Positions 3,493 to 29,651 of a DNA stretch of 64,000 bases are shown piece by piece. The DNA is taken from positions 165,196-229,195 of the forward strand of contig NZ_JAANNO010000001.1 of the NCBI RefSeq assembly GCF_011250645.1, given 5' to 3'. Made by a program: the position numbers and the translations under genes. The stretch comes from Motilibacter aurantiacus. GTDB taxonomy: Bacteria; Actinomycetota; Actinomycetes; Motilibacterales; Motilibacteraceae. Position 1 is the stretch's first letter. Each line of letters begins with the position of its first letter. Under the pieces are notes generated by a model. It was given only the letters and a program-made list of their open reading frames with translations, was not told the DNA's origin and ran no database searches.

Positions 3493-4434
3493 TCAGGCGT
3501 CCACTGATCGGAACACGTCGTCCAGCGACGCGCTCCGCGCCTGCAGCCGGGCGAGGGGCAGCTGACGGCCCTCGGCCCAGGACAGGAGCGCCCAGAGGTC
3601 CGCCTGGACGTCCACGGAGCCCAGCTCGACCGTGTCGACGCCCGGCCGCGGCCCGGCGCCGGCGGTCACCGGCAGGGGACGCGAGGTCCGGGGCAGCTCC
3701 CCGGCGGACACCCCTGCGGGAAGCACGAAGGAGATCTGCGAGGGCACCGCGGCGAGCACCTGCGCCACGGTCCCGGACAGCTGGATGCGGCCGCGGTGCA
3801 GGATCGCGAGCCGGTCGGCGAGCGCCTCGGCCTCGTTGAGGTAGTGGGTGGTGAGCAGGACCGTCGTGCCCGACGCGACGAGGTTGCGCAGCACGTCCCA
3901 CGTGTGCTGCCGGGACGTCGGGTCGAGGCCGGTGGTCGGCTCGTCCAGGACCAGCAGCTCCGGCTCGCCCAGAGTGGCCAGCGCCAGGTCGAGCCGCCGG
4001 CGCTCACCCCCGGACAGCTGGCGCACCGGGACGTCGCGACGGTGGGCGAGCTGCAGCACCTCGAGCTGGTCGTTCCAGTCCGCGCCGTGGGCCGTCCGGC
4101 GCAAGGAGGACCACAGCCGGCAGGTCTCCGCGACCGTCAGGTCACCGGCGAAGCCGCTTTCCTGCAACACCTCTCCGGTACGCGAGCGCAGCTCGCGGGC
4201 CTGCGTGCCGGGGTCGAGCCCGAGCACCCGCACACTCCCGTCGTCGGCGCGCCGCCGCCCGGCGAGCGTGTCGAGGGTCGTCGTCTTGCCGGCGCCGTTG
4301 GTGCCGAGCAGCGCGAACACCTCGCCCCGGCGTACCTGCAGGTCGATGCCGTCGACCGCGGTGTGGTCGCCGTAGCGACAGATGAGGCCGCGGACGGTCA
4401 CGACGTCGTCGGTGTCGGGCGGGGTCGTCGTCAT
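3493..4434 (-). CDS. ABC transporter ATP-binding protein (drug/ABC-2 exporter type)
   Basis: 313 residues from the ATG at 4434, chosen because the DrrA/CcmA-type domain begins at once ('VVTVRGLICRYGDHTAVDG'). A longer frame reaches 4500 but its extra 22 residues are unlike the family. Walker A 'GTNGAGKTTTLDTLAG', ABC signature 'LSGGERRRLDLALATL' and Walker B 'LLVLDEPTTGLDP' are all intact, followed by the H-loop 'LLTTHYLNEAEAL'. The C-terminal ~90 residues form a typical accessory region. It powers the permease encoded just downstream. Confidence 0.9.
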   Translation of the reverse strand: MTTTPPDTDDVVTVRGLICRYGDHTAVDGIDLQVRRGEVFALLGTNGAGKTTTLDTLAGRRRADDGSVRVLGLDPGTQARELRSRTGEVLQESGFAGDLTVAETCRLWSSLRRTAHGADWNDQLEVLQLAHRRDVPVRQLSGGERRRLDLALATLGEPELLVLDEPTTGLDPTSRQHTWDVLRNLVASGTTVLLTTHYLNEAEALADRLAILHRGRIQLSGTVAQVLAAVPSQISFVLPAGVSAGELPRTSRPLPVTAGAGPRPGVDTVELGSVDVQADLWALLSWAEGRQLPLARLQARSASLDDVFRSVDA

Positions 4435-4543: not shown

Positions 4544-5725
4544 GTGGACGACGTACGCAGGCCTCTGGTGGCGGTCCGGCGCTTCGTGCTCTGGTCGCTC
4601 TGGCCCGCGGCCGTGGCACTGCTCGTCGTCCAACTGGTCTGGGTGGCACTGCTCGCTGGGGAGTCTGCGCTCGCCGCCGCCGTCGCCCTCCCCCTCCTCG
4701 TCGCGGCGACCTGGGCCCAGGTGCGGCAGACCCGCAGCGCGCTGGCCGAGCCACCGGGGCCGCCGCCGCCTACGCGGGCAGCCGTCGCGCAGGTGGCCGC
4801 CGTCGCGCTGCTCGCGGGGCTGCTGCCCGCGGCCACGGACGAGTCCCCCCGCTGGTACGGCTCGCTGATCGTCGGCTCCATGGTCGGCCCTCTGGTCGAG
4901 CTGGTGCCCCGGCGCCGTCGGCTTCCTCTCCTGGCGGGCTTCGGCACGCTCACCGCGCTCGCCGCATGGCAGCTTCCGGACCGGGCCCTCGGCGGCGAGC
5001 CCGGGCCCCTGCTGGCCGCCGGGCCCTTCGCGGCGGGCCTGGCGGCGCTCTTCATGGCCGGCGTGACGTGGTCGAGCTTCTGGTACTGGTCGACCGTCCG
5101 CACCCTGGACGAGGCGCGGCGGCGGGCGGCCCAGGCCGAGCTGGAGGCCGAGCGGCTACGCTTCGCCGCCGACCTGCACGACGTCCAGGGGCATCACCTG
5201 CAGGTCATCGCGCTCAAGGCCGAGCTGGTGAGCCGGCTGATCGAGGTCGACCCCGCAGCCGCCCGACGGGAGGCGGACGAGGTGCGGGCACTGGCCGCGC
5301 AGACGCTCGCCGACACGCGCGCGGTGGTGCGTGACTACCGTCGCGTCGGCCTCGCGACCGAGGTCGACAACGCGGTCGCGGTGCTGCGCTCGGCCGGGGT
5401 GGACGCCGTCGTCGACGGGGACGCGACGCTCGTCCCGACGGCGCTGCAGGGGGCCGCCGGGCACCTGATCCGCGAGGGGACGACGAACGTGCTCCGGCAC
5501 GCCCGCGCCCGTCGCGTGCGGGTGAGCCTGCACTGCGGGCACGAGGGCGCGGTGGTCGCGATCGAGGACGACGGGGCACCGACGGCAGGCCGTGTCACGC
5601 GCGACGGGACCGGGATCGCCGGGCTCCGGGAGCGTTTCGCCGCGTTGGGCGGCGACGTGGAGGCCGTCCCATTGCCCGAACGCGGCTTCCGGCTCGAAGG
5701 CCGTCTCCCGATGAGCCGGGCATGA
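4544..5725 (+). CDS. Sensor histidine kinase, NarL/DesK (HisKA_3) family
   Basis: 393 residues from GTG. The N-terminal ~185 residues hold about six membrane segments, with no large extracellular domain, as in DesK-like intramembrane sensors. The dimerisation/phosphoacceptor helix carries His212 in 'DLHDVQGHHLQVIALKAEL'. The ATPase domain shows an N-box 'REGTTNVLRHA' and G-boxes 'EDDGAP' and 'GTGIAGLRERFAALGG'. It overlaps its response regulator by 4 bp (ATGA) and is divergent from an ABC exporter, the likely target. The signal may be membrane state or an antibiotic, by analogy only. Confidence 0.9.
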   Translation: MDDVRRPLVAVRRFVLWSLWPAAVALLVVQLVWVALLAGESALAAAVALPLLVAATWAQVRQTRSALAEPPGPPPPTRAAVAQVAAVALLAGLLPAATDESPRWYGSLIVGSMVGPLVELVPRRRRLPLLAGFGTLTALAAWQLPDRALGGEPGPLLAAGPFAAGLAALFMAGVTWSSFWYWSTVRTLDEARRRAAQAELEAERLRFAADLHDVQGHHLQVIALKAELVSRLIEVDPAAARREADEVRALAAQTLADTRAVVRDYRRVGLATEVDNAVAVLRSAGVDAVVDGDATLVPTALQGAAGHLIREGTTNVLRHARARRVRVSLHCGHEGAVVAIEDDGAPTAGRVTRDGTGIAGLRERFAALGGDVEAVPLPERGFRLEGRLPMSRA

Positions 5726-19206: not shown

Positions 19207-20636
19207 GGCCGGCGCAGCACGGCGTAGCTGCCGTTGTCCAGCACCAGCTCGTAGCCGCGCGACTGCAACAGGGCGACGCGGTCGCGCTGGACCGCCAGGG
19301 AGTCGATCGGGAACGACGAGCGGGCCACGTCGACGACCACCCACGGGGCGTCGCGGGGCGTCTTGTCCAGGAGCAGCACGGTCCCCCGGTCCGCCAGGTG
19401 CGGGCCGATCTCGTTGTCCGCCTCGACCGTCACGCCGTCGGGCACCGCCGCCACGGCCTGGGCGGCCGCCCGCTCGTGCGCGTCCAGCCGCCAGGTCTCG
19501 CGGTCGGCCAGGTCGGCGAAGGGGAACCTCGCGCAGAGCACGACGGCGGCCAGCACCGCGTACGCCGCGAACGCCTGCCGCCAGCGCAGCGGCAGCCGAC
19601 GGGCGGCCTCGACCGCGGCGACGACGAGGACCGGGAGGAGCACCGCGTTGTAGTGCTGCTCGAGGCCCCAGTGGTTGGGGTTGGAGGAGATGGCCCTCTC
19701 CCCCAGCTGCGGCAGGGTGAGCAGCACGACCGGCGACGCGAGCGGCAGGAACGCGAAGGGCGCCAGCAGCCAGAGGACGGTCTCCTCCTTCTGCACCGGC
19801 GTGAAGATGACCTCCAGCGTCTCCACCGGGTCGGGCAGCGCGGCGAAGAACGCCTCGTAGTAGTCGCCGTCCGGGGACCCGTGCCCGTAGAACGCCGGCA
19901 CGATGACCGAGGTCGAGAGGTACGCCCCCAGCAGCCCCGCGGCGGCGAGACCGGCGCCCAGCCGGCGCTGACCGCGCAGCGCGAGCAGCACCCCGAACAT
20001 GACCGTGACGAAGCCCATGTCCTCCTTGACCAGCATCAGGGAGGCGGCCCAGGCGGCGGCCTGGCCGGGCCGGTGGGCTTGCAGCCGCTCGCAGGCAAGC
20101 AGGATCAGAGGTACGGCAAAGAGGACTTCATGGAAGCCGACTACGGACGCCTCCTGCAGCGGCCAGGCCAGCCCGGTCGCGACGGCCACCGCGTACGCGA
20201 TGCCGGGTCCCAGCGCCCGGCGGGCGATCACCCAGGCGAGGCCGATGGACACCGCGATCAGCGCGGCCTGGGCCAGGATCAGCATCCGCGGGTCGTCCCA
20301 GACCCAGTAGAGCGGCGCGAGCAGCACGAGGATCGGGGAGAAGTGGTCGCCGAGCGCGATGAGGTCGGGCCCGACGTCGAGGTGGACACCGAGGGCGGGC
20401 TGGACCGGGGACCCCCACCCGGCGTAGCCCCTGACCGTCTCGTCGAAGAGCAGCAGGTCCCACGAGCCGACCCGGAAGTTGCGGTACGCGAGCAGGCCCA
20501 GGGTCGCGTGCACCGCGGCCAGCGCCAGCGCCACCGCCGGCACGGCGACCGCGTGCGGGCCGACCGGTCGCCGCGGCGCGCGCCCGGCACCCTCCAGCTG
20601 GGGCGGGCGCTCGAGCAGTGGGGGGCGCTCCGTCAC
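19203..20636 (-). CDS. DUF2079 membrane protein
   Basis: 477 residues from the GTG at 20636. Hallmarks of DUF2079 are 'YRNFRVGSWDLLLFDETVRGY', 'LGDHFSPILVLLAPLYWVW' and 'SVVGFHEVLFAVPLILLACE', with about ten membrane helices and a C-terminal soluble part. The first loop has the acidic/His pattern of GT-C transferases, so it may move a sugar from a polyprenyl carrier. Likely leaderless: TACCGT lies 7 nt before the GTG and no Shine-Dalgarno is present. It is the first gene of a unit with the 708-residue protein and perhaps the GT2. Confidence 0.82.
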   Translation of the reverse strand: MTERPPLLERPPQLEGAGRAPRRPVGPHAVAVPAVALALAAVHATLGLLAYRNFRVGSWDLLLFDETVRGYAGWGSPVQPALGVHLDVGPDLIALGDHFSPILVLLAPLYWVWDDPRMLILAQAALIAVSIGLAWVIARRALGPGIAYAVAVATGLAWPLQEASVVGFHEVLFAVPLILLACERLQAHRPGQAAAWAASLMLVKEDMGFVTVMFGVLLALRGQRRLGAGLAAAGLLGAYLSTSVIVPAFYGHGSPDGDYYEAFFAALPDPVETLEVIFTPVQKEETVLWLLAPFAFLPLASPVVLLTLPQLGERAISSNPNHWGLEQHYNAVLLPVLVVAAVEAARRLPLRWRQAFAAYAVLAAVVLCARFPFADLADRETWRLDAHERAAAQAVAAVPDGVTVEADNEIGPHLADRGTVLLLDKTPRDAPWVVVDVARSSFPIDSLAVQRDRVALLQSRGYELVLDNGSYAVLRRP

Positions 20637-20643
20637 CCGCGCG

Positions 20644-20681
20644 ACGGTACAACGTGGGGCGCAGGGGCGTGGGCCTACGCT
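20644..20681. promoter_or_regulatory. Divergent leaderless promoters
   Basis: Minus strand: TACCGT (20649-20644), 7 nt, then GTG at 20636. Plus strand: TACGCT (20676-20681), 7 nt, then GTG at 20689. Both fit the TANNNT -10 consensus with transcription starting at the start codon. The two genes are only 52 bp apart, and no Shine-Dalgarno precedes either. Confidence 0.6.
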
Positions 20682-20688
20682 GCCGGAC

Positions 20689-21450
20689 GTGGCCTCCCCC
20701 GACACCCCCATCGGCCTGCTGCGGAACGCGCTGACCGCGGACCCAGCCCGGCCTTTCGTCACGTTCTACGACGACTCGACCGGTGAGCGGGTCGAGCTGT
20801 CGGTGCTGACGTTCGACAACTGGGTCGCGAAGACCGCCAACCTGCTGCAGGACGAGCTCGCCGTCACGCCCGGCCAGACGCTCGCGCTCGTCCTGCCCGC
20901 GCACTGGCAGGCCCCGGTGTGGCTCCTGGCGGCCTGGTCGGTGGGGCTCGAGGTGACCCCGGCACGCCCCGGCGACCCGCTGCCGCAGGCCGACGTGATC
21001 GTCACCGGCCCGGAGAGCCTCGACGACGCGGTCGCGGCCGGGGCGGGCGAGGTCGTCGCGCTCAGCCTGCGGCCCGCGCTGCTGGCGGCGACGACGCCCG
21101 GGCCGGCTCTGCCCGCGGGCGTGATCGACGGGGACGCGGAGGTCCCCCCGCAGGGCGACCGCTTCCTCGCCTACGCCCCGCCGGCGCCCGACGCCCCGGC
21201 CCTGGACTGCCAGGACCAGGCGCTCACCGCCGCCGGGCTCGCCCGGTCCGGGCGCGACGCCGCGGCCCGGTTGGGGGCCCGCCCCGGCGCACGCCTCCTG
21301 ACCGGGCGGGCCTTCGACACCGCCGAGGCGATCGTGGAAGCGCTGCTGGTGCCGCTCGCCGTGGGCGGGTCCCTGGTGCTGTGCCGCAACGCCGACCCCG
21401 CCGCGGCCGACGCCCGGCGCGACGTGGAGCAGGTCGACCTGGTGGTGTGA
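20689..21450 (+). CDS. TIGR03089 family protein (acyl-CoA-synthetase-like N-terminal fold)
   Basis: 253 residues from a leaderless-type GTG. It matches the actinobacterial TIGR03089 family: 'NALTADPARPFVTFYDDSTGERVELSV' cut across 'FDNWVAKTANLLQDEL', and 'VLPAHWQAPVWLLAAWSVG'. These resemble the N-terminal subdomain of ANL adenylating enzymes but lack the ATP-binding P-loop and C-terminal domain, so a catalytic role is doubtful. In mycobacteria and streptomycetes it sits beside LCP and nucleotide-sugar genes; here it neighbours envelope glycan genes. Confidence 0.85.
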   Translation: MASPDTPIGLLRNALTADPARPFVTFYDDSTGERVELSVLTFDNWVAKTANLLQDELAVTPGQTLALVLPAHWQAPVWLLAAWSVGLEVTPARPGDPLPQADVIVTGPESLDDAVAAGAGEVVALSLRPALLAATTPGPALPAGVIDGDAEVPPQGDRFLAYAPPAPDAPALDCQDQALTAAGLARSGRDAAARLGARPGARLLTGRAFDTAEAIVEALLVPLAVGGSLVLCRNADPAAADARRDVEQVDLVV

Positions 21451-21451
21451 G

Positions 21452-21477
21452 GACGGGCCCGCCGGAGGCGGCCCGTC
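21452..21477. terminator. Bidirectional terminator
   Basis: 8-bp stem GACGGGCC / GGCCCGTC with a 10-nt loop between the TIGR03089 stop and the amidohydrolase stop; the right arm overlaps the TGA of the minus-strand gene. Confidence 0.6.
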
Positions 21478-23083
21478 AGCCCGGGGCCCCGTGCACCACC
21501 TGCCCGCCCACGACCGTCGCCAGTACGGGCAGCCCGGGCAGCTCCTCCGGCGCGCAGGCCACCGGGTCGCCGCCGAGCACGGTCAGGTCCGCCCGCATGC
21601 CGACGGCGAGCCGGCCGGCGACGGCCTCCTCGCGCAGGGCGTACGCCGGCCCGGTCGTCATCGCGGCGAGAGCCTGCGCGGGGCCGAGCGCCTGCCCGGC
21701 CCCGCCGTACGCCGGCCGGCCCGTGCCGACGGGGGCGCGCAGCGCCGCGCTGGCGAGCGTGCGCCGGGGGTCGCTGCTGCTGATCGGCCAGTCGGACCCG
21801 AGCGCGAGCGTCGCTCCCGCGGCGGCCAGGTCGCCCAGCCGCCACGCGCGGCGCACCCGTCCCGCGCCGACCCGCCGGGACCAGGGGTCGGCCAGCCCGG
21901 GGTCGGACCAGTCCATGTGCGCCGGCTGGACCGAGCCGACCACGTCGAGGGCGCGGAAGCGCCGGACGTCTGCGTCCGCGAGCACCTCGAGGTGCTCGAC
22001 CCGGTGCCGCGCCGTCCGCGGCCGCGGGGCCAGCGCGTAGGTGTCGAGGGCGTAGGCGACGGCCGCGTCGCCGATCGCGTGGGTCCACGTCGGCAGCCCG
22101 GCGTCGGCGGCGGCGAGCACGGCCCTCCGGTAGTCGACGGGGTCCAGCCACTGCGGGGCCTGGCACTCGCCGCAGGCGTCCGGCTCGGCGAGCCAGGCGG
22201 TGCCGGCGTCGACCACGCCGTCGAGGAACGCCTTGACCGCCGCGACCCGGTAGCGCCGGCCGGGCCGGCCGGCCCGGGCCGCGGCGAGCGCGACCGTCTC
22301 TCCCGCGGTGCCCGCGGTGCACCAGGGGGCGCTGACCACCCGCAGCGGCAGCCGCCCCTCGGCGTCCAGCAGCGACAGCGCGTCGTGCGTGTCGCCCCAG
22401 GAGTCGAGCACGTGCACCCCCGTGAGCCCGGTCGCGGCCTTCGCCTGCAGCAGCGTCTCGAGCCGGTCGGCCAGTTCCGGCACCGTCCCGGCCGGCAGCG
22501 CCCGCGCCGCGAGACCGACGGCCGACATCTCCCGGACCACGGCGGCGCCGTCGACGGCCACGCTCGACCGGTCGGCGAAGCGCTCCGCCCCGGTGAGGCC
22601 GCCCAGCCGCACGGCGGCCGAGCTGAGCAGGACCGTGTGCAGGTCGGCGAGCCACACCCAGGCCGGGCGCCCTCCCGCCGCCGTGTCCACGTCCCTCGCC
22701 GCGGTGGCCAGGTCGTCGACGGCGCCGTAGTCCAGCCCGTGCGCCACCACCCACTCGCCCGGGGCGGTGGCCGCTGCGGCGGCGGCGATCGCGGACCTCA
22801 GGCCGGCACGCCCGGCCACGGCGGACAGGTCGACGCCCCGCTCCTGCTCGAGCCCGATGCCGAGGTGGACGTGCGCGTCGACCAGGCCGGGCACGACGAC
22901 CTGCCCGGGCGCCTCGAGCACCTGGGTACGCCCGCCGATCGTGGTCTTCACGTCGCGCTCGTCCCCCACCGCGACGATGCGGCCGCCGCTGACGGCCAGG
23001 GCGGTGGCCGGGGCGGCGCCCGGGACGAGGGTGTGCACCCGCGCCCCGAGCACGGCCAGGTCGGCCTGGGGAGGCGCGCTCAC
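21476..23083 (-). CDS. Amidohydrolase family protein, YtcJ-like
   Basis: 535 residues from a GTG that overlaps the permease stop (GTGA). 'VVVPGLVDAHVHLGIG' gives the HxH metal ligands, 'TWTHAIGDAAV' and 'RHRVEHLEVL' the later His residues, and 'LGSDWPIS' the catalytic Asp, all as in YtcJ/exoenzyme-regulatory amidohydrolases. It is cytosolic and should hydrolyse an amide or imide. Coupling to an APC permease under a TetR operator suggests uptake and hydrolysis of an N-acylated amine or amino-acid derivative; the substrate is not known. Confidence 0.87.
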   Translation of the reverse strand: MSAPPQADLAVLGARVHTLVPGAAPATALAVSGGRIVAVGDERDVKTTIGGRTQVLEAPGQVVVPGLVDAHVHLGIGLEQERGVDLSAVAGRAGLRSAIAAAAAATAPGEWVVAHGLDYGAVDDLATAARDVDTAAGGRPAWVWLADLHTVLLSSAAVRLGGLTGAERFADRSSVAVDGAAVVREMSAVGLAARALPAGTVPELADRLETLLQAKAATGLTGVHVLDSWGDTHDALSLLDAEGRLPLRVVSAPWCTAGTAGETVALAAARAGRPGRRYRVAAVKAFLDGVVDAGTAWLAEPDACGECQAPQWLDPVDYRRAVLAAADAGLPTWTHAIGDAAVAYALDTYALAPRPRTARHRVEHLEVLADADVRRFRALDVVGSVQPAHMDWSDPGLADPWSRRVGAGRVRRAWRLGDLAAAGATLALGSDWPISSSDPRRTLASAALRAPVGTGRPAYGGAGQALGPAQALAAMTTGPAYALREEAVAGRLAVGMRADLTVLGGDPVACAPEELPGLPVLATVVGGQVVHGAPG

Positions 23084-24579
23084 CGCGCACCGCCGCCGGC
23101 GAACGAGGAGGCCGCGGCGACGCGTCGGTGCGGCTGCGCGACCAGCAGGTAGAACGTGCCGGCGGCCAGCGCGAGGACGGTCACGAGAACGGCGGCCCAG
23201 ACCTGGTACCACGGCGCGTCCGGCGGGGCGAGCTGCTCGCGCGGCCACGCCACGTTGACGAACTCGAAGCCCAGCCACGCCACGGCCGCGACGTTGAGCG
23301 CGAGCCCGCGTCGGGCGCGGCGGGCACCTCCGGCGGGCTGCCAGCGGCCGGTCAGCCGCCCGATGAGCGCCGCGACGGCGATGAGCAGGAAGACGAGGTA
23401 CGCGACCGCCGTGCCGAACGCGAGCAGGCTGCCCATCGCGGTGGAGTCGAGGCCGAGCAGCAGCCCTGCGCCCCCGACGAGCGTCACGCCTGCGATCGCG
23501 CCGACCGGGGCCTGGTGGCGGTTGAGCCGCTGCAGGGCGCGCGACCCCGGCAGCACCTCGTCGCGCGACATCGACCACATCATCCGCGCGGTCGCCCCCT
23601 GGGCGGCCATGCCGCAGGCGACGAAGGCCACGAGCACGAGCACGGCGAACGGCTTGGTCGCCCAGTCGCCGAAGCCCTGGGTCACCGCGGTCGTGACCGG
23701 GTCCACGTCGGCGCCGGCGGGGACGAGCGACGGGTCCGGATGGGCGAGCGTGACGGCGACCGCGTCGAGCACGACGATGGCGCCGACCGACAGCAGCGCC
23801 GCCCAGACCGCGCGCGGCACGTGGCGGGCGGCGTCGCGCGTCTCCTCGCTGGAGGCGATGCAGGCGTCCATGCCGAGGAACGCCCAGCCCGCGACCGCGA
23901 GCACGGCGAGCCCCGCGGCGAGCGACGACCCGCCGAAGGCCGCTTCGGCACCGAGCGAGTCGGTCAGGACGGACAGGCCCTGCTCCCGGAAGGCAAGCAG
24001 GAGCACCAGCCCGACCACGACGGAGGCCACGATCTCGGCCGCGATGCCGAGGGACACCAGCCGGCGCAGCGGCTCGATGCCGTACGTGTTGACGGCCGAG
24101 CACGCCAGGAGGAACACCGCCGCGGTGGCGACGTGCAGGGCGGGGCCCGGGGTGTCGCCGAGGGCGGCCCACACCCACGGCGCGGCCAGATAGGCGATCG
24201 TGGTGTTGGCCGCGAGAAAGGCGCACAGGGACAGCCAGCCGGTCATCCACGCGTACCTCGCGCTGGGCAGGACGCGTCTGGTCCATTGATAGGCGCCGCC
24301 GGCCACGGGGAAGCGCGCTGCGAGCTCGGCGTAGACGGAGACCAGGCAGGCCTGGCCGGCGAGGGCGACGGGCAGCGCCCACACCCAGAGCCCGCCGGCG
24401 ACGGCGAGCCCGACGAGGGCGACGCCGTAGAGCCCGACGACCGGGGAGATGGTGGCGAAGCCGAGGGCGAGGTTGCCGCGCATGCCCAGGCTGCGCCGCA
24501 GCTGCTGCTCGTAGCCGAGCAAGCGCAGGCGCGCGGCGTCGTCGGCCGTGGTGACGTCGAAGGTGGTCAGGGTGGACAT
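23080..24579 (-). CDS. APC-family amino acid/polyamine permease
   Basis: 499 residues from the ATG at 24579 with GAGAGGA upstream. Twelve membrane helices; 'GFATISPVVGLYGVALVGLAV' is the unwound helix-1 motif and 'ELAARFPVAGGAYQWTRRVL' the conserved helix-3 entry of the amino acid-polyamine-organocation family. It is the first gene of the operon with the amidohydrolase. Its promoter (-35 TTGCGC, 17-bp spacer, -10 TAGGTT) contains one copy of the palindromic operator and precedes another, so repression by the divergent TetR protein is likely. Confidence 0.9.
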   Translation of the reverse strand: MSTLTTFDVTTADDAARLRLLGYEQQLRRSLGMRGNLALGFATISPVVGLYGVALVGLAVAGGLWVWALPVALAGQACLVSVYAELAARFPVAGGAYQWTRRVLPSARYAWMTGWLSLCAFLAANTTIAYLAAPWVWAALGDTPGPALHVATAAVFLLACSAVNTYGIEPLRRLVSLGIAAEIVASVVVGLVLLLAFREQGLSVLTDSLGAEAAFGGSSLAAGLAVLAVAGWAFLGMDACIASSEETRDAARHVPRAVWAALLSVGAIVVLDAVAVTLAHPDPSLVPAGADVDPVTTAVTQGFGDWATKPFAVLVLVAFVACGMAAQGATARMMWSMSRDEVLPGSRALQRLNRHQAPVGAIAGVTLVGGAGLLLGLDSTAMGSLLAFGTAVAYLVFLLIAVAALIGRLTGRWQPAGGARRARRGLALNVAAVAWLGFEFVNVAWPREQLAPPDAPWYQVWAAVLVTVLALAAGTFYLLVAQPHRRVAAASSFAGGGAR

Positions 24580-24621
24580 GGTGGTCCTCTCGGATGCGGA
24601 TGGGAAGGGCCTCCAGCGTGA

Positions 24622-24636
24622 CCTAACATCGTTAGG
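24622..24636. promoter_or_regulatory. TetR operator copy 1
   Basis: CCTAACATCGTTAGG, a perfect 6-bp dyad with a 3-nt centre, in the permease-tetR intergenic region, 28 bp centre to centre from copy 2. It lies downstream of the permease start of transcription. Confidence 0.8.
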
Positions 24637-24647
24637 AGGCACCGTGG

Positions 24648-24676
24648 AACCTAACGCTGTTAGGAAGCGGGCGCAA
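24648..24676 (-). promoter_or_regulatory. Promoter of the permease-amidohydrolase operon
   Basis: On the minus strand TTGCGC (24676-24671), a 17-bp spacer and TAGGTT (24653-24648). Operator copy 2 lies across the spacer and -10, the same geometry as the LysE promoter at 25328-25356. Confidence 0.65.
24650..24664. promoter_or_regulatory. TetR operator copy 2
   Basis: CCTAACGCTGTTAGG, same arms as copy 1, overlapping the -10 element of the permease promoter. Binding here would block RNA polymerase directly. Confidence 0.82.
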
Positions 24677-24700
24677 GACCCATTTCGCCAGGAGATCGAC

Positions 24701-25318
24701 ATGCCACGCACGACCACCGCGCCCCTGACCCGCGACTCCATCGCGCGCGCAGCGCTCGACCTGCTCGACGAGCGGGGGTCGGCCGGCTGGACCATGCGGG
24801 CGCTCGCGGACCGGCTGGGCGTCCGAGCGCCGTCGCTCTACAGCCATGTCGCGAACCAGGACGAGATCCTCGACGCCGTCCACGAGCAGATCAACTCCGA
24901 GATCGACCTCGACGCGCTCGAGGGGGACGACCTGCGGACGGCGCTGACCGACTGCGCCCGCTCGTACCGCGCCGCGTACGTCCGGCACCCGCACGCGACC
25001 GCGCTCATCGCGCACCGGCCGATAGGCACCGACTCCGCCCTGCGGGTGTACGACGCGATCCTGCGCACGCTGCTCCGGCACGGCGTGCCCGCCGGCGAGG
25101 CGATGCGCTTCACCGCCGTCCTCGACTACCTCGTGCTCGGGTCGGCCGTCGAGACGTTCATCGGCGGGTTCGGCGAGGCCGCCGACTACCGCGAGGCGTA
25201 CCCGTCACTGGCCGCCGCCCTGCAGGCGTGCGACCGCGACTGCATCGACGAGGAGGGCTTCGAGCTGGGCCTGGCCCGCCTCGTGGAGGCGGTGGTGGCC
25301 GCGAGCACGGAGCGGTGA
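24701..25318 (+). CDS. TetR-family transcriptional repressor
   Basis: 205 residues from the ATG at 24701; AGGAG 6 nt upstream decides it against the open frame from 24548. The N-terminal HTH is 'SAGWTMRALADRLGVRAPSLYSHV', and the C-terminal domain resembles the tetracycline-repressor-like C-terminal class. Four copies of CCTAACnnnGTTAGG flank the gene on both sides and sit on the promoters of the permease-amidohydrolase operon and the LysE gene. It therefore most likely represses both and itself, and is released by a small ligand carried by these transporters. Confidence 0.9.
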   Translation: MPRTTTAPLTRDSIARAALDLLDERGSAGWTMRALADRLGVRAPSLYSHVANQDEILDAVHEQINSEIDLDALEGDDLRTALTDCARSYRAAYVRHPHATALIAHRPIGTDSALRVYDAILRTLLRHGVPAGEAMRFTAVLDYLVLGSAVETFIGGFGEAADYREAYPSLAAALQACDRDCIDEEGFELGLARLVEAVVAASTER

Positions 25319-25327
25319 CAGCGGGTC

Positions 25328-25356
25328 TTGACCCAGCTCCCTAACGGCGTTAGGTT
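25328..25356 (+). promoter_or_regulatory. Promoter of the LysE-type exporter gene
   Basis: TTGACC (25328-25333), exactly 17 bp, then TAGGTT (25351-25356): a near-consensus sigma-70-type promoter. Operator copy 3 covers its spacer and -10, and copy 4 covers the expected transcription start. Confidence 0.75.
25340..25354. promoter_or_regulatory. TetR operator copy 3
   Basis: CCTAACGGCGTTAGG, embedded in the spacer and -10 of the LysE promoter. Confidence 0.82.
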
Positions 25357-25357
25357 T

Positions 25358-25372
25358 CCTAACACTGTTAGG
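25358..25372. promoter_or_regulatory. TetR operator copy 4
   Basis: CCTAACACTGTTAGG, 18 bp centre to centre from copy 3 and placed over the start of transcription, so two dimers could bind the same promoter. Confidence 0.82.
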
Positions 25373-25437
25373 CGCCGCGTCCGTCGGCGTCGCTGACCGC
25401 AGGCCGCTCCGCCTGCCCGGCCCGCCGAGGACCCCCC

Positions 25438-26058
25438 ATGACCACCTGCCTGCCGCTGGCCCAGGCCCTCGTCACCGGCGCGCTCGCCGGCCTGGCGCTG
25501 TCGGTGCCCTTCGGTGCGCTCAGCTCGATGCTGATCGACACCGGCATGCGCTCGACGCGCCGGGTCGCCGCGGCAGCGGCCGGCGGGGTGGCCCTGACCG
25601 ACTTCTCCTTCGCACTCGCCGCCGGCGCCGCAGGCGCGTCCGTCACGGCCACCCTGCAGCCGTGGGAGCGGCACGTCCACGGGCTCTCCGCCGCGGTGCT
25701 CCTCGCCCTCGCGGCGTACTCACTGGTCGGCGCGCGCAGCCCGGCGCCGCCGGGCCCGGCCGGGCCGGGCAGCGGGCTGCGCGCCTGCCTTCGCTTCGTC
25801 GCCGTCACCGCCGCCGACCCGCTGACCGCCCTCACACTGGCGACCGCTGCCTCCACCCTGGGCAGCACCTCCGCCCTCACCGCGGCCTGCTTCGCCCTCG
25901 GGTGCGGCCTCGTGTCCGTCTCCTGGCACAGCGCCCTCGCGCTCGGCGGCAACGCCATCGGGCGCCGCCTGTCGCCCACGGCCCGGCGACGGGCCGGATA
26001 TGCGGGAGCTGCCACCACGGTGGCCCTCGCACTCCACCTCGCGGTCTCGGCCGCATGA
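25438..26058 (+). CDS. LysE-family exporter
   Basis: 206 residues, six membrane helices. The start 'LAQALVTGALAGLALSVPFG' contains the pore-lining N-terminal motif of LysE/RhtB exporters, and the internal repeat begins at 'FVAVTAADPLTALTLATAA' (the 'NP' of classic LysE is replaced by 'DP'). It should export amino acids or related small metabolites. Two TetR operators sit on its promoter, so it is co-regulated with the import/hydrolysis operon on the other side of the regulator. It may prevent overload by the hydrolysed product. Confidence 0.83.
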   Translation: MTTCLPLAQALVTGALAGLALSVPFGALSSMLIDTGMRSTRRVAAAAAGGVALTDFSFALAAGAAGASVTATLQPWERHVHGLSAAVLLALAAYSLVGARSPAPPGPAGPGSGLRACLRFVAVTAADPLTALTLATAASTLGSTSALTAACFALGCGLVSVSWHSALALGGNAIGRRLSPTARRRAGYAGAATTVALALHLAVSAA

Positions 26059-26090
26059 GCCCCGACCATCGACAGCAGAGGAGTACTTCC

Positions 26091-26252
26091 ATGCAGCGCA
26101 CTTCGCCGATCGTGTCCGCCGTCCTCGACTTCGGCTACTACTGGCCGTTCCTCGACCCCGCGGCCGACCCCATGCCGACACCGGCGACGCCGGTCCCGCT
26201 CACGCGCCGGCCGGCCGGCCCCACCGCCGGGGCCTGCTCCGCGGCGGGGTGA
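26091..26252 (+). CDS. Small hypothetical protein, 53 residues
   Basis: An ATG preceded by GAGGAG (8-nt spacing) 32 bp after the LysE stop opens a frame of 53 codons. The first 23 residues ('MQRTSPIVSAVLDFGYYWPF') are hydrophobic-aromatic and the rest is Pro/Thr/Ala-rich. No family is recognised. Its last 53 bp overlap antisense with the end of the WapI-type gene. It may be co-transcribed with the LysE gene and thus under the TetR operators. Translation is plausible because of the ribosome site but unproven. Confidence 0.4.
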   Translation: MQRTSPIVSAVLDFGYYWPFLDPAADPMPTPATPVPLTRRPAGPTAGACSAAG

Positions 26253-26739
26253 GCCGCACCGGGTATGCGGCGAGCTCGTGCTCCCACCGCTCGGCCGCGT
26301 GCAGCAGTCCGGCGCGCAGGACGACGAGCCTCAGGACGTACTCGTACGGCTCACGCTCGAGGCCGTCCGGCGGCTCCGCCTCCAGCGAGAGGTGCGCTCG
26401 CACCGTGCAGGCCGTGCCCGAGACCGCCGCCACGCTGAAGGCCAGGACCGGCTCCAGGAACGTCAGCAACCCGGGCGAGGTGTCGTCCCACAGTCCGTCC
26501 GCCGGGGCGGGCAGCGGAGCCACGTCCCCGGCCGCAGCCGCTCGCAGCCAGGTCCCGAGGGCTGCCGCTTCCCCGGTGGACAGGCAGGGGCTGGAGAAGG
26601 CCCAGGCCGCCCCTGCCGCCGCCCGGGCCTCGCCCCGGACGACGAGCCAGTTCGCGTCGTCCTCCTCCCGAGCGGCGGGGAACTCGTACGCCGAAGGGAC
26701 AAGCCGCAGTGCAGCGCCGTCCTCGCCCTCCAGCAACAC
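26200..26739 (-). CDS. WapI-family immunity protein (orphan)
   Basis: 179 residues from GTG. Segments 'SAYEFPAAREEDDANWLVV', 'AWAFSSPCLSTGEAAALGTW', 'LTFLEPVLAFSVAA' and 'VRAHLSLEAEPPDG' match the WapI immunity family, whose founder in Bacillus neutralises the toxic tail of the wall-associated WapA protein. No WapA, Rhs or polymorphic toxin gene is visible in the window, so it would be an orphan immunity gene or have a different role. The gene starts 7 bp before the end of the upstream M15-like gene. Confidence 0.6.
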   Translation of the reverse strand: MLLEGEDGAALRLVPSAYEFPAAREEDDANWLVVRGEARAAAGAAWAFSSPCLSTGEAAALGTWLRAAAAGDVAPLPAPADGLWDDTSPGLLTFLEPVLAFSVAAVSGTACTVRAHLSLEAEPPDGLEREPYEYVLRLVVLRAGLLHAAERWEHELAAYPVRLTPPRSRPRRWGRPAGA

Positions 26740-26745
26740 GTGCGA

Positions 26746-27861
26746 CTAGCGCTTCGCCGAACTCGACTTCGGCTTGGACGTGGCCTTGGGCGTCGGCGCC
26801 GCCTTCGGCGGCGCGGGCGGCGCGGCCGTGAGCTTCACGACCGACGTCAGCACCCAGTCCGCCTGCCGCCGGTAGCTCGGCCTCGCCGAGACCTGCACGA
26901 CGACCGTGGACCTGATGAAGACGTCACAGGTGCGCGCCGCGGGCGCCTCCGCGTCGCAGGAGACCTTGTACGCCCGCCCCGCGGACGAGGTGAACTCGCC
27001 CGTGTGCGTGATGCCGTTGGCGTCCCACTTGGCCGACGTGACGTCCAGGAACGTCGTCCGGTCACGGGCCCATCCGGTCACGGTCTCGTACTTCTTCGCC
27101 GTCGCGTTGTAGACGACCCGGGTGGACTTGACCTTCGCCTCGCACGTCGCCGAGGGCGGGCTGCCGTACGTGCAGGTGACGTCCCACCACTTGCCGTCGA
27201 TCAGGTGGATCCCGGGCGTCGTCATCGGGTCGAGCGACCACCAGGTGGTCCGCTTGAGGGCGCCGGCCCAGGACAGGCTGATGTGGATGTGGTCCGAGTG
27301 CGCCTCGGCGCCGGTGTAGGGCAGCCAGCCGGCGCCCGGGCGGTAGGCCCGCCAGATCTGCTTGTCCCAGATGATGTACATGACGCCGAGCCGGCGCGCC
27401 ATGGCCGCCTGGTTGCCGTAGGCGTCGGGCGCGGTCAGCCAGTCCACGATCGACTGCGCGGTCGCGTCCTCCTCGGGATCGCTCGCGTCGAGCATCACGT
27501 CGAGGGCGCGGCCCTCGTGGTGCTCGCTGATGGCCTTGCTGCAGGCGCGGGTGATGCCGAAGCCGGAGATCGCCGGGTACGTGGCCGCGAGCAGCTCCTG
27601 CAGGCCGACGGTGCCCGGCTGCGCGGTCTTGACGCAGGTCTTCTGCTCCTCGTAGCCCGCGAGGTCGTCGATCCACTCGGGGAACTGCGGAGTGGCCGGC
27701 GGCGGCGGGAGCGGCACCGCGGGCGCCGTCGGCGGCGCAACGGGAGGGGCCGGCGTGGCGGCAGGGGCCGGCGCCGGGGCGGCGTGGGCGACGGTGGCGG
27801 AGCCGGTCACGACGGCGACGGCCAGCGCGACGGCGGCCGCGCCGCGGGAAGGGGCGCTCAC
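26746..27861 (-). CDS. Secreted M15-like (ARB_07466 C-terminal-type) protein with extra C-terminal domain
   Basis: 371 residues from a GTG overlapping the SpoIID gene stop. A signal peptide ends near 'VAHAAPAPAP', followed by a Pro/Ala linker. Residues about 70-215 hold 'EHHEGRALDVMLD' and 'AHSDHIHISLSW', arranged like the His/Asp zinc ligands of D,D-carboxypeptidase/M15 enzymes and typical of the ARB_07466-like domain. The C-terminal ~140 residues contain two GKWWDVTC/ RAYKVSC-type cysteine-pair units related to the tails of the next two genes, ending in a Lys/Pro/Ser-rich tail. It probably acts on peptidoglycan outside the cell. Confidence 0.72.
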   Translation of the reverse strand: MSAPSRGAAAVALAVAVVTGSATVAHAAPAPAPAATPAPPVAPPTAPAVPLPPPPATPQFPEWIDDLAGYEEQKTCVKTAQPGTVGLQELLAATYPAISGFGITRACSKAISEHHEGRALDVMLDASDPEEDATAQSIVDWLTAPDAYGNQAAMARRLGVMYIIWDKQIWRAYRPGAGWLPYTGAEAHSDHIHISLSWAGALKRTTWWSLDPMTTPGIHLIDGKWWDVTCTYGSPPSATCEAKVKSTRVVYNATAKKYETVTGWARDRTTFLDVTSAKWDANGITHTGEFTSSAGRAYKVSCDAEAPAARTCDVFIRSTVVVQVSARPSYRRQADWVLTSVVKLTAAPPAPPKAAPTPKATSKPKSSSAKR

Positions 27862-29651
27862 CGCGGCACCGTCAGCCGGACGTAGCGCTGCACGACCCAG
27901 GTGGGCCTGGCGACGTAGCGGTAGCCCCCGGCCGTCGTGACCCGGGAGATCAGCTTCTTGTTGACGGAGACCGTGCACTGGCGCGGCCCGGTGGCGGCGG
28001 TGCACGTGGTCCTCCAGGTGAGGCCCTTCGCGTCCTTCCAGGTCCCGTTCCGGCCGTACGGGCTGCGGTCCCACGCCGCGGTCGCCGGGGTGTCGTACGC
28101 GGTCGCCATCGGCTTGTAGCCGACGCGGCGGGCGTAGCCGCCCCGGGCGCTCTTGTCCCGCACGTAGAACGTCGCGACGCCGTACGCCGTGCAGCGGTGG
28201 GTCTGCCCGTAGTCGATGCAGGTGGTGCGCCACTGCCGGCCGTTGTGCGTGCGCTCGCCGGGCTGCCGGTAGACGATCGAGAGCGTCGGCGGGTCGACCG
28301 CCGGAGGCGCGGGCGGGGTCGGGGTGCTGACCGGGGGCACGTCGAGCGAGATCGACCGCACCCATGCGGACCTGAGGCCCAGCTTGGTCCGGAAGACCTC
28401 GCCGTCGAGCTGCTTGCTCGTGCCGTCCGGGCCGGTCGCGGTGACCGCGGTCGCGGCGTCGGAGCCGTCCTTCTCCGTCACGGCCAGCGCGGCGATGCCG
28501 GAGAGGCCGAACGCGGAAGCGACCTTCGACGCGGCGACGCTCACCGTCCAGGAGCGGTTCGGGTTGTAGGAGCCGTTGCTCCAGCGGTCGTCCACGGACT
28601 TCGCGTAGCTCAGCGGTGACGTCCAGACCCACTCGCTGTTGCGGGTGCGCCCGCCGCTGGAGGAGAAGTAGTACGTGCGGATCGGGCTGCCGGACGCGTC
28701 CTTGACGACGAGCCCGGAGTCGGCCCCGACGGTCGTCGCGTCGACCGCGGCCCGCCAGCGGTCCCCCCAGACCGTCGACCCGGAGCGCTCGCCCTCCTTC
28801 TTCCAGCCGGTGTAGACCTGGCTCGCGTCGGTGTCGTAGACGTTGCAGTCGCCGCAGCCGCGCGTGCCCCCCGGCTTCGCGAGCACGATGCCGAGGGCGT
28901 ACGAGCGGGCCGCGATGGCCTGCGCGCGCAGCGCCTCGGTCGGCCAGGAGGACGGGACCTCGGCCAGGCCGTAGAGGTACTCGTCGTGCAGGCTCAGCAC
29001 CCCCACGGCCTCGAGCCGGCCCTTCGACCCGCCGTACGCGGCCGAGGGGAGGATCTCGACCGAGCCGCGGCGCAGCTGGTCCGACCCCACCGACACGACG
29101 GTGGCGGGCGAGCCGGCCAGCGCGCCGGCACCGCCGCCCCACTCGACCGCGAGCCGGCTGCCGGCGTACTGCTCGGCGGTGCCGTCGGCCCGGGCCACCG
29201 CGACGGCGACCGAGGAGTCCGAGGCCGTGGCCGTCGCCCGGTCACCGGCGGCCAGGCCGACCGGCGTCGCGTCGATCGTCAGCTGCCACGCGCCGCCTCC
29301 GGCCGCGACCGCCGTGCTGGACAGCGCGAGGCTGCTCACCCCGTGCGCGAGGTTGACCCGGATCGGGCGGGCGTCGGGCGCGGCCGACACCGTGGTGCCG
29401 GTGAAGTAGTGCGGCAGGATCTGCTCGGCCGTGCGCCCCTCCTGGGCCTGGCCGTAGGCGCCGTACTGGCTCATCCCGACGCCGTGGCCGAACCCGGCGC
29501 CGGTGACCGTCACGGTGGACGCGGCCGGCAGCGCGGCGCGGGTGACGGGCGCGGCCTGGGCGGCCTGCCCGACCGCGCCGGCGAGCGGGGCGAGCGACGC
29601 GGCGAGGCCGAGGGCCGTGACGCCGGCCAGGCCGCGGGCGAGGCGGGTCAC
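27858..29651 (-). CDS. SpoIID/LytB-domain secreted protein with extra C-terminal domain
   Basis: 597 residues from a GTG overlapping the amidase stop. After a signal peptide, 'VTGAGFGHGVGMSQYGAYGQA' and 'LHDEYLYGLAEVPSSWPTEALRAQAIAARSY' (split for family match) plus 'YYFSSSGGRTRNSEWVW' identify the SpoIID/LytB domain; SpoIID is a lytic transglycosylase and LytB an enhancer of amidase. From about residue 460 a Pro-rich linker leads to a ~130-residue tail with two cysteine-pair units ('NGRQWRTTCIDYGQTHRC' and 'GLTWRTTCTAATGPRQC'). The cognate amidase is encoded immediately upstream, as LytB/LytC pairing would predict. Confidence 0.88.
   Translation of the reverse strand: MTRLARGLAGVTALGLAASLAPLAGAVGQAAQAAPVTRAALPAASTVTVTGAGFGHGVGMSQYGAYGQAQEGRTAEQILPHYFTGTTVSAAPDARPIRVNLAHGVSSLALSSTAVAAGGGAWQLTIDATPVGLAAGDRATATASDSSVAVAVARADGTAEQYAGSRLAVEWGGGAGALAGSPATVVSVGSDQLRRGSVEILPSAAYGGSKGRLEAVGVLSLHDEYLYGLAEVPSSWPTEALRAQAIAARSYALGIVLAKPGGTRGCGDCNVYDTDASQVYTGWKKEGERSGSTVWGDRWRAAVDATTVGADSGLVVKDASGSPIRTYYFSSSGGRTRNSEWVWTSPLSYAKSVDDRWSNGSYNPNRSWTVSVAASKVASAFGLSGIAALAVTEKDGSDAATAVTATGPDGTSKQLDGEVFRTKLGLRSAWVRSISLDVPPVSTPTPPAPPAVDPPTLSIVYRQPGERTHNGRQWRTTCIDYGQTHRCTAYGVATFYVRDKSARGGYARRVGYKPMATAYDTPATAAWDRSPYGRNGTWKDAKGLTWRTTCTAATGPRQCTVSVNKKLISRVTTAGGYRYVARPTWVVQRYVRLTVPR

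Follow-up and report, generated by a model that had tools for sequence, protein, structure and literature searches.

In the window, the 64,000-nucleotide stretch of Motilibacter aurantiacus DNA that was analysed, a gene for a TetR-family repressor lies between a permease and amidohydrolase gene pair on the minus strand and a gene for a LysE-type translocator on the plus strand. Four copies of one palindrome lie in the two intergenic regions around the repressor gene. The genes, identified by Pfam matches, and the putative control elements are listed below. Both promoters were read by eye from the sequence and are hence inferred.

21476-23083, minus strand: YtcJ-like amidohydrolase, 535 aa, Amidohydro_3; with a GTG start codon that overlaps the permease gene's end
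23080-24579, minus strand: APC-superfamily permease, 499 aa, AA_permease_2
24622-24636, no strand: putative operator copy 1, CCTAACATCGTTAGG, shortly after the point where permease transcription is expected to begin
24648-24676, minus strand: putative permease promoter, TTGCGC (24676-24671), 17 bp, TAGGTT (24653-24648)
24650-24664, no strand: putative operator copy 2, CCTAACGCTGTTAGG, lying on the spacer end and on most of the -10 hexamer in the permease promoter
24701-25318, plus strand: TetR-family repressor, 205 aa, TetR_N and TetR_C_1
25328-25356, plus strand: putative lysE promoter, TTGACC (25328-25333), 17 bp, TAGGTT (25351-25356)
25340-25354, no strand: putative operator copy 3, CCTAACGGCGTTAGG, lying across spacer and -10 hexamer in the lysE promoter
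25358-25372, no strand: putative operator copy 4, CCTAACACTGTTAGG, spanning the expected lysE start
25438-26058, plus strand: LysE-type translocator, 206 aa

The repressor has the helix-turn-helix domain TetR_N (PF00440, 33.4 bits, cut-off 24) and the C-terminal ligand and dimer domain TetR_C_1 (PF02909, 45.3 bits, cut-off 21). At the sequence level a dyad operator is present both at its own gene and at the divergent gene, as is looked for with a TetR_C_1 regulator. It is not a tetracycline repressor proper, as it reached 80.9 bits compared to the 265 bits of the NCBIfam equivalog NF010319. The LysE protein matches PF01810 (33.5 bits, cut-off 25.6) and had zero matches in NCBIfam. The best NCBIfam match of the permease, to the urea carboxylase system permease (TIGR03428), reached 157.3 bits compared to a curated cut-off of 740.45. 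N-substituted formamide deformylase, a name considered for the amidohydrolase from a search listing, was not adopted.

Palindromes and promoters

The window contains four exact copies of CCTAAC-N3-GTTAGG, all at the places given in the preliminary description. When up to two mismatches were allowed, four matches were again obtained, compared to a mean of 0.23 in shuffled sequences, and none of 100 shuffles reached four. The preliminary description was to be abandoned if the same palindrome occurred at many unrelated genes, but in the whole M. aurantiacus genome (62 contigs, 4,589,758 bases) these four copies were the only ones, with no fifth site, and the reversed pattern used as control gave 0. 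A search for the shorter core CTAAC-N3-GTTAG with up to one mismatch returned the same four exact copies and zero places with one mismatch, which is fewer than base composition predicts; the reversed control gave 5.

Copies 1 and 2 are located between tetR, for which no promoter was recognised, and the permease gene. The arrangement first proposed, with copies 2 and 3 on the spacer and -10 of two promoters of equal geometry and copies 1 and 4 downstream, was found as described: both putative promoters have a 17-bp spacer and the -10 TAGGTT, the expected permease start is closely followed by copy 1, and the expected lysE start falls within copy 4. A scan for consensus promoters listed neither of them, because TAGGTT scores below its threshold.

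Conservation in Motilibacter deserti

When genome contigs were scanned with the TetR protein, matches were obtained in M. deserti alone. This species has all four genes in the same order, with identities of 95 % for TetR, 93 % for the permease, 90 % for LysE and 85 % for the amidohydrolase. All four sites are retained, including copy 1 (L013), as are the hexamers of the putative permease promoter, and both hexamers of the putative lysE promoter are unchanged. Over both intergenic regions, with gaps counted as change, the arm columns were unchanged in 48 of 48 cases, whereas 149 of the 195 other columns were unchanged and 46 had changed (Fisher p = 1.8e-5). The centre of copy 4 is GCC in M. deserti instead of ACT, with the arms kept, and the spacing of copies 3 and 4 is one base shorter. 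Because of these two differences, the comparison suggests that each dyad may be bound singly and not as part of a fixed pair. For this work L013 and the G003 contig of L075 were taken as one sequence, and loci L001-L010 overlap each other.

Permease loci of Streptomyces

Streptomyces loci were picked by similarity to the permease alone, without use of the motif, and 22 of 392 genomes matched at E 1e-120. The genus of genome G172 is called Streptomyces here, in part on the basis of its neighbours; L042, L070 and L078 all denote one locus of this genome. Twelve of the 22 loci, with permeases 54-58 % identical to the present one, have a divergent relative of the TetR protein (44-52 % identity) and exactly one CTAAC-N3-GTTAG in the gap. 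The other ten, with permeases of 46-48 % identity, had neither a TetR match nor the site in about 1.5 kb searched on each side. A thirteenth locus with TetR, permease and site (L044/L072) came from the TetR search. All 13 have a hexamer positioned relative to the site exactly as TAGGTT is here (TAGATT in 11, TAGGTT in one and TAGTTT in one), and no clear counterpart of the -35 at 17 bp was seen.

The six-base arms are identical in all four copies, as first described, but this does not extend to the relatives, where only the core CTAAC/GTTAG is kept. Because the outermost base pair varies in the 13 Streptomyces loci, the recognised operator core is predicted to be five plus five bases, CTAAC-N3-GTTAG.

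The permease gene is followed by a PAD_porph gene in nine of the 12 loci; it is absent in L070 and L117, and the contig ends in L122. At least five of the nine proteins (L112, L114, L115, L119 and L120) start with a twin-arginine-like signal. For three of the PAD_porph proteins the closest curated model was found to be agmatine deiminase (AguA equivalog TIGR03380), with scores of 274-283 bits, below the cut-off of 381.8, and the closest solved sequence relatives of one protein include agmatine deiminases. PF04371 (PAD_porph) was not found in the M. aurantiacus genome, and the chemistry here must therefore differ from that in Streptomyces. These modules of TetR, APC permease and agmatine-deiminase-like protein (L112-L122, L070 and L072) resemble the present locus in their core operator and in its position. 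They differ in having one operator compared to four here and no match to the amidohydrolase or, by tblastn in the 12 loci, to lysE. The TetR-controlled APC permease and agmatine-deiminase-like operons of L112-L121 resemble a scavenging route of which we found no description.

Wider relatives of the repressor and the motif

Among 43 loci with TetR relatives, the exact dyad was found in the 300 upstream bases of 18, compared to 0.01 expected from shuffles. On a tree of these relatives the presence of the dyad needs two changes, whereas shuffled labels need 14.1 on average; several branches are long, those of L046, L043 and L011 among them, so that their placement is unsure. The TetR of L043, the nearest on the tree, follows another APC permease gene. 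Two of the 18, L011 in a different genus of this family (G002) and L012 in M. deserti (G003), are placed away from the others on the tree; their proteins are 36-37 % identical and are encoded near ABC-transporter genes (L124 and L123, respectively). Many of the remaining loci have an imperfect dyad of related sequence, TTAGCA(C/G)TGCTAGT, which was found in 15 of 32 loci with TetR relatives.

A distant TetR type near ABC-transporter genes was observed with core sites in the M. deserti genome (L123, G003:C216:3000-11000, site at 4072) and in G002 (L124, G002:C2:1027000-1036000, sites at 5001 and 5034). The core at these places equals the present operator core and it is mainly the flanking base pair that differs, so cross-talk of two TetR types in M. 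deserti is conceivable.

The full 15-mer occurs outside the genus in 31 of 391 genomes, with a weak match to the present TetR adjoining it in just three of 28 loci examined. As it mostly stands there without such a relative, other regulators can read it. In L028 (G207:C1, about 101108-101171; G207 is congeneric with G172) two exact 15-mers lie 49 bases apart and enclose one more copy of the core, apparently directly in front of a gene, and no relative of the present TetR was seen within 3 kb. Seven genomes of genus g36 (L031, L034-L039) contain CCTAACAACGTTAGG or its complement, probably as the operator of an unrelated regulator.

Fit of the repressor to its operator

In the tet system the regulator adjoins a divergent transporter gene and has paired operators. 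The present locus is similar in both respects and also shares G+2 and T+4 with tetO, but it has a permease, an amidohydrolase and a LysE protein and not a tetracycline pump. Among solved structures, TetR(A) and TetR(D) (PDB 5mru and 1qpi) are nearest to the present protein in sequence (E 1.6e-21 and 1.3e-13). In the account of the TetR-tetO complex given in PMC7102968, Arg28 to G+2 and Gln38 to A+3 are the sole side chains that hydrogen bond bases directly, and Tyr42 touches T+4. AmtR is reported to have equivalents of the base-contact residues (PMC2723105).

The alignment places Arg33, Ala43 and Tyr47 of the present protein at the positions of Arg28, Gln38 and Tyr42. In the operator half GTTAG, G+2 and T+4 are as in tetO, whereas T replaces A at +3. 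Ala in place of Gln38 alongside T at +3 is what one would expect. A simple code from residue 38 to base +3 was nevertheless rejected, since relatives with Gly at this position carry CTAAC or CTAGC-type dyads; those with SGPSLYNH, for example, have Gly together with the imperfect dyad.

Discussion

The locus is of a known type, in which a TetR-family repressor acts locally on divergently arranged transport genes. Because 12 of the 22 Streptomyces loci share both TetR and site and the other ten have neither, it is well supported that a TetR_C_1 repressor would act locally through a CTAAC-N3-GTTAG operator. The basis in silico consists of the sites themselves, their uniqueness in the genome, their conservation, and the linkage of the site with TetR and permease. 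Control of both sides by one local repressor that a ligand can release is, in our judgement, highly probable. The preliminary description had gone further and assigned both sides to one metabolite: the part concerning the two divergent promoters is upheld by the Streptomyces loci and by the uniqueness of the sites, but a metabolite common to both sides is weakly supported.

We infer operator binding, repression, release by ligand, the direction of transport and the action of LysE on the same compound as follows. A TetR dimer would bind each dyad of 13-15 bp (core CTAAC-N3-GTTAG). At each promoter one dyad would cover the spacer and -10, with the second at or just after the start point, and binding would block RNA polymerase on both sides. 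Copies 1 and 2, being upstream of tetR, probably also put its own expression under control. The imported compound or its product would fill the C-terminal pocket, and the repressor would leave the DNA. The permease-amidohydrolase operon would then be made and the compound imported and hydrolysed, while LysE, also made, would export surplus product.

As to the substrate, the pairing of permease and amidohydrolase recurs. Seven relatives of the amidohydrolase were found outside the genus among 236 genomes, three beside an APC permease and three beside an NCS1 permease; the seventh (L109) adjoins a TetR gene, with no permease within 1.5 kb. The G196 locus (L111, within which L104 lies) is similar in its amidohydrolase (48 %), its TetR (42 %) and one CTAAC-N3-GTTAG between TetR and the permease operon, but its permease is of the NCS1 family and it has no lysE match. 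In the Streptomyces loci permease and regulator recur together, and the enzyme is swapped. TetR and site are thus retained with varying partners, and uptake and hydrolysis of a small nitrogen compound appears a fair reading.

It is reported that APC permeases of comammox bacteria are predicted to import guanidine (PMC11410670; PMC12186494). The comammox guanidinase operons described in PMC11410670 are similar in that an APC permease stands beside a hydrolase of an organocation; they are controlled by riboswitches and have another hydrolase, and so offer an analogy for the substrate class only. Based on these permeases and on the Streptomyces enzyme, our best guess is that the ligand would be an amine, a guanidino (agmatine-like) or a ureido compound. 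Agmatine is converted via N-carbamoylputrescine to putrescine in a described route (PMC9397018).

Taken as a whole, the locus may be one version of a module by which actinobacteria scavenge an amine-type nitrogen compound, which would be agmatine-like, guanidino or ureido. In such a module TetR and CTAAC-N3-GTTAG would be constant, the APC or NCS1 transporter and the YtcJ-type amidohydrolase or Tat-exported deiminase would be exchanged between lineages, and Motilibacter would have added LysE under two further operator copies. We offer this full version as a speculative proposal, which we consider rather doubtful in its entirety. Overflow of a product via LysE is a plausible guess, to which recurrence gives no support: relatives of lysE were found in two of 236 genomes at E 1e-18, both Motilibacter.

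This distribution, together with the 12 Streptomyces loci in which tblastn found no LysE, gives some weight to the possibility that the same TetR serves two separate ends. The permease and amidohydrolase would be a nutrient route, and LysE, which Motilibacter would have recruited by copying the operator pair, a detoxifying exporter for a by-product or for the signal compound itself. However, M. deserti retains sites 3 and 4 together with the promoter hexamers, and one operator is common to both halves, so that a shared signal at least is likely; we regard this explanation as quite possible, although not as the probable one. It is improbable that the dyads are read mainly by another regulator of the cell and that the adjoining TetR is incidental: the spread of the 15-mer outside the genus, mostly apart from such a TetR, would agree with this, but TetR type and site co-occur perfectly across the 22 permease loci, and the four sites of the M. 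aurantiacus genome all surround tetR. RNA hairpins acting in leaders by attenuation can practically be dismissed, since copies 1 and 4 would fall in or at the start of leaders but copies 2 and 3, in the spacer and -10, lie upstream of any transcript from both promoters, the stems would be of 6 bp, with three-base loops and without a T run, a search for terminator-like sites found none, and an Rfam scan of 20000-28000 gave 0 matches.

A literature search on the text of the motif, which covered few subscription papers, found no paper, and looser searches of similar coverage gave nothing on such a regulon among the matches listed.

With the proposed local repression by the TetR protein on both sides, the locus is a compact circuit of four operators with a strong phylogenetic footprint, in which regulator, operator and targets can be named confidently from the sequence. 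The swapped partner genes narrow the search for the ligand. The combination of T at +3 and the absence of Gln38 offers a natural case for examining DNA recognition by TetR proteins, and given its ligand, the pair of regulator and operator could become a sensor.
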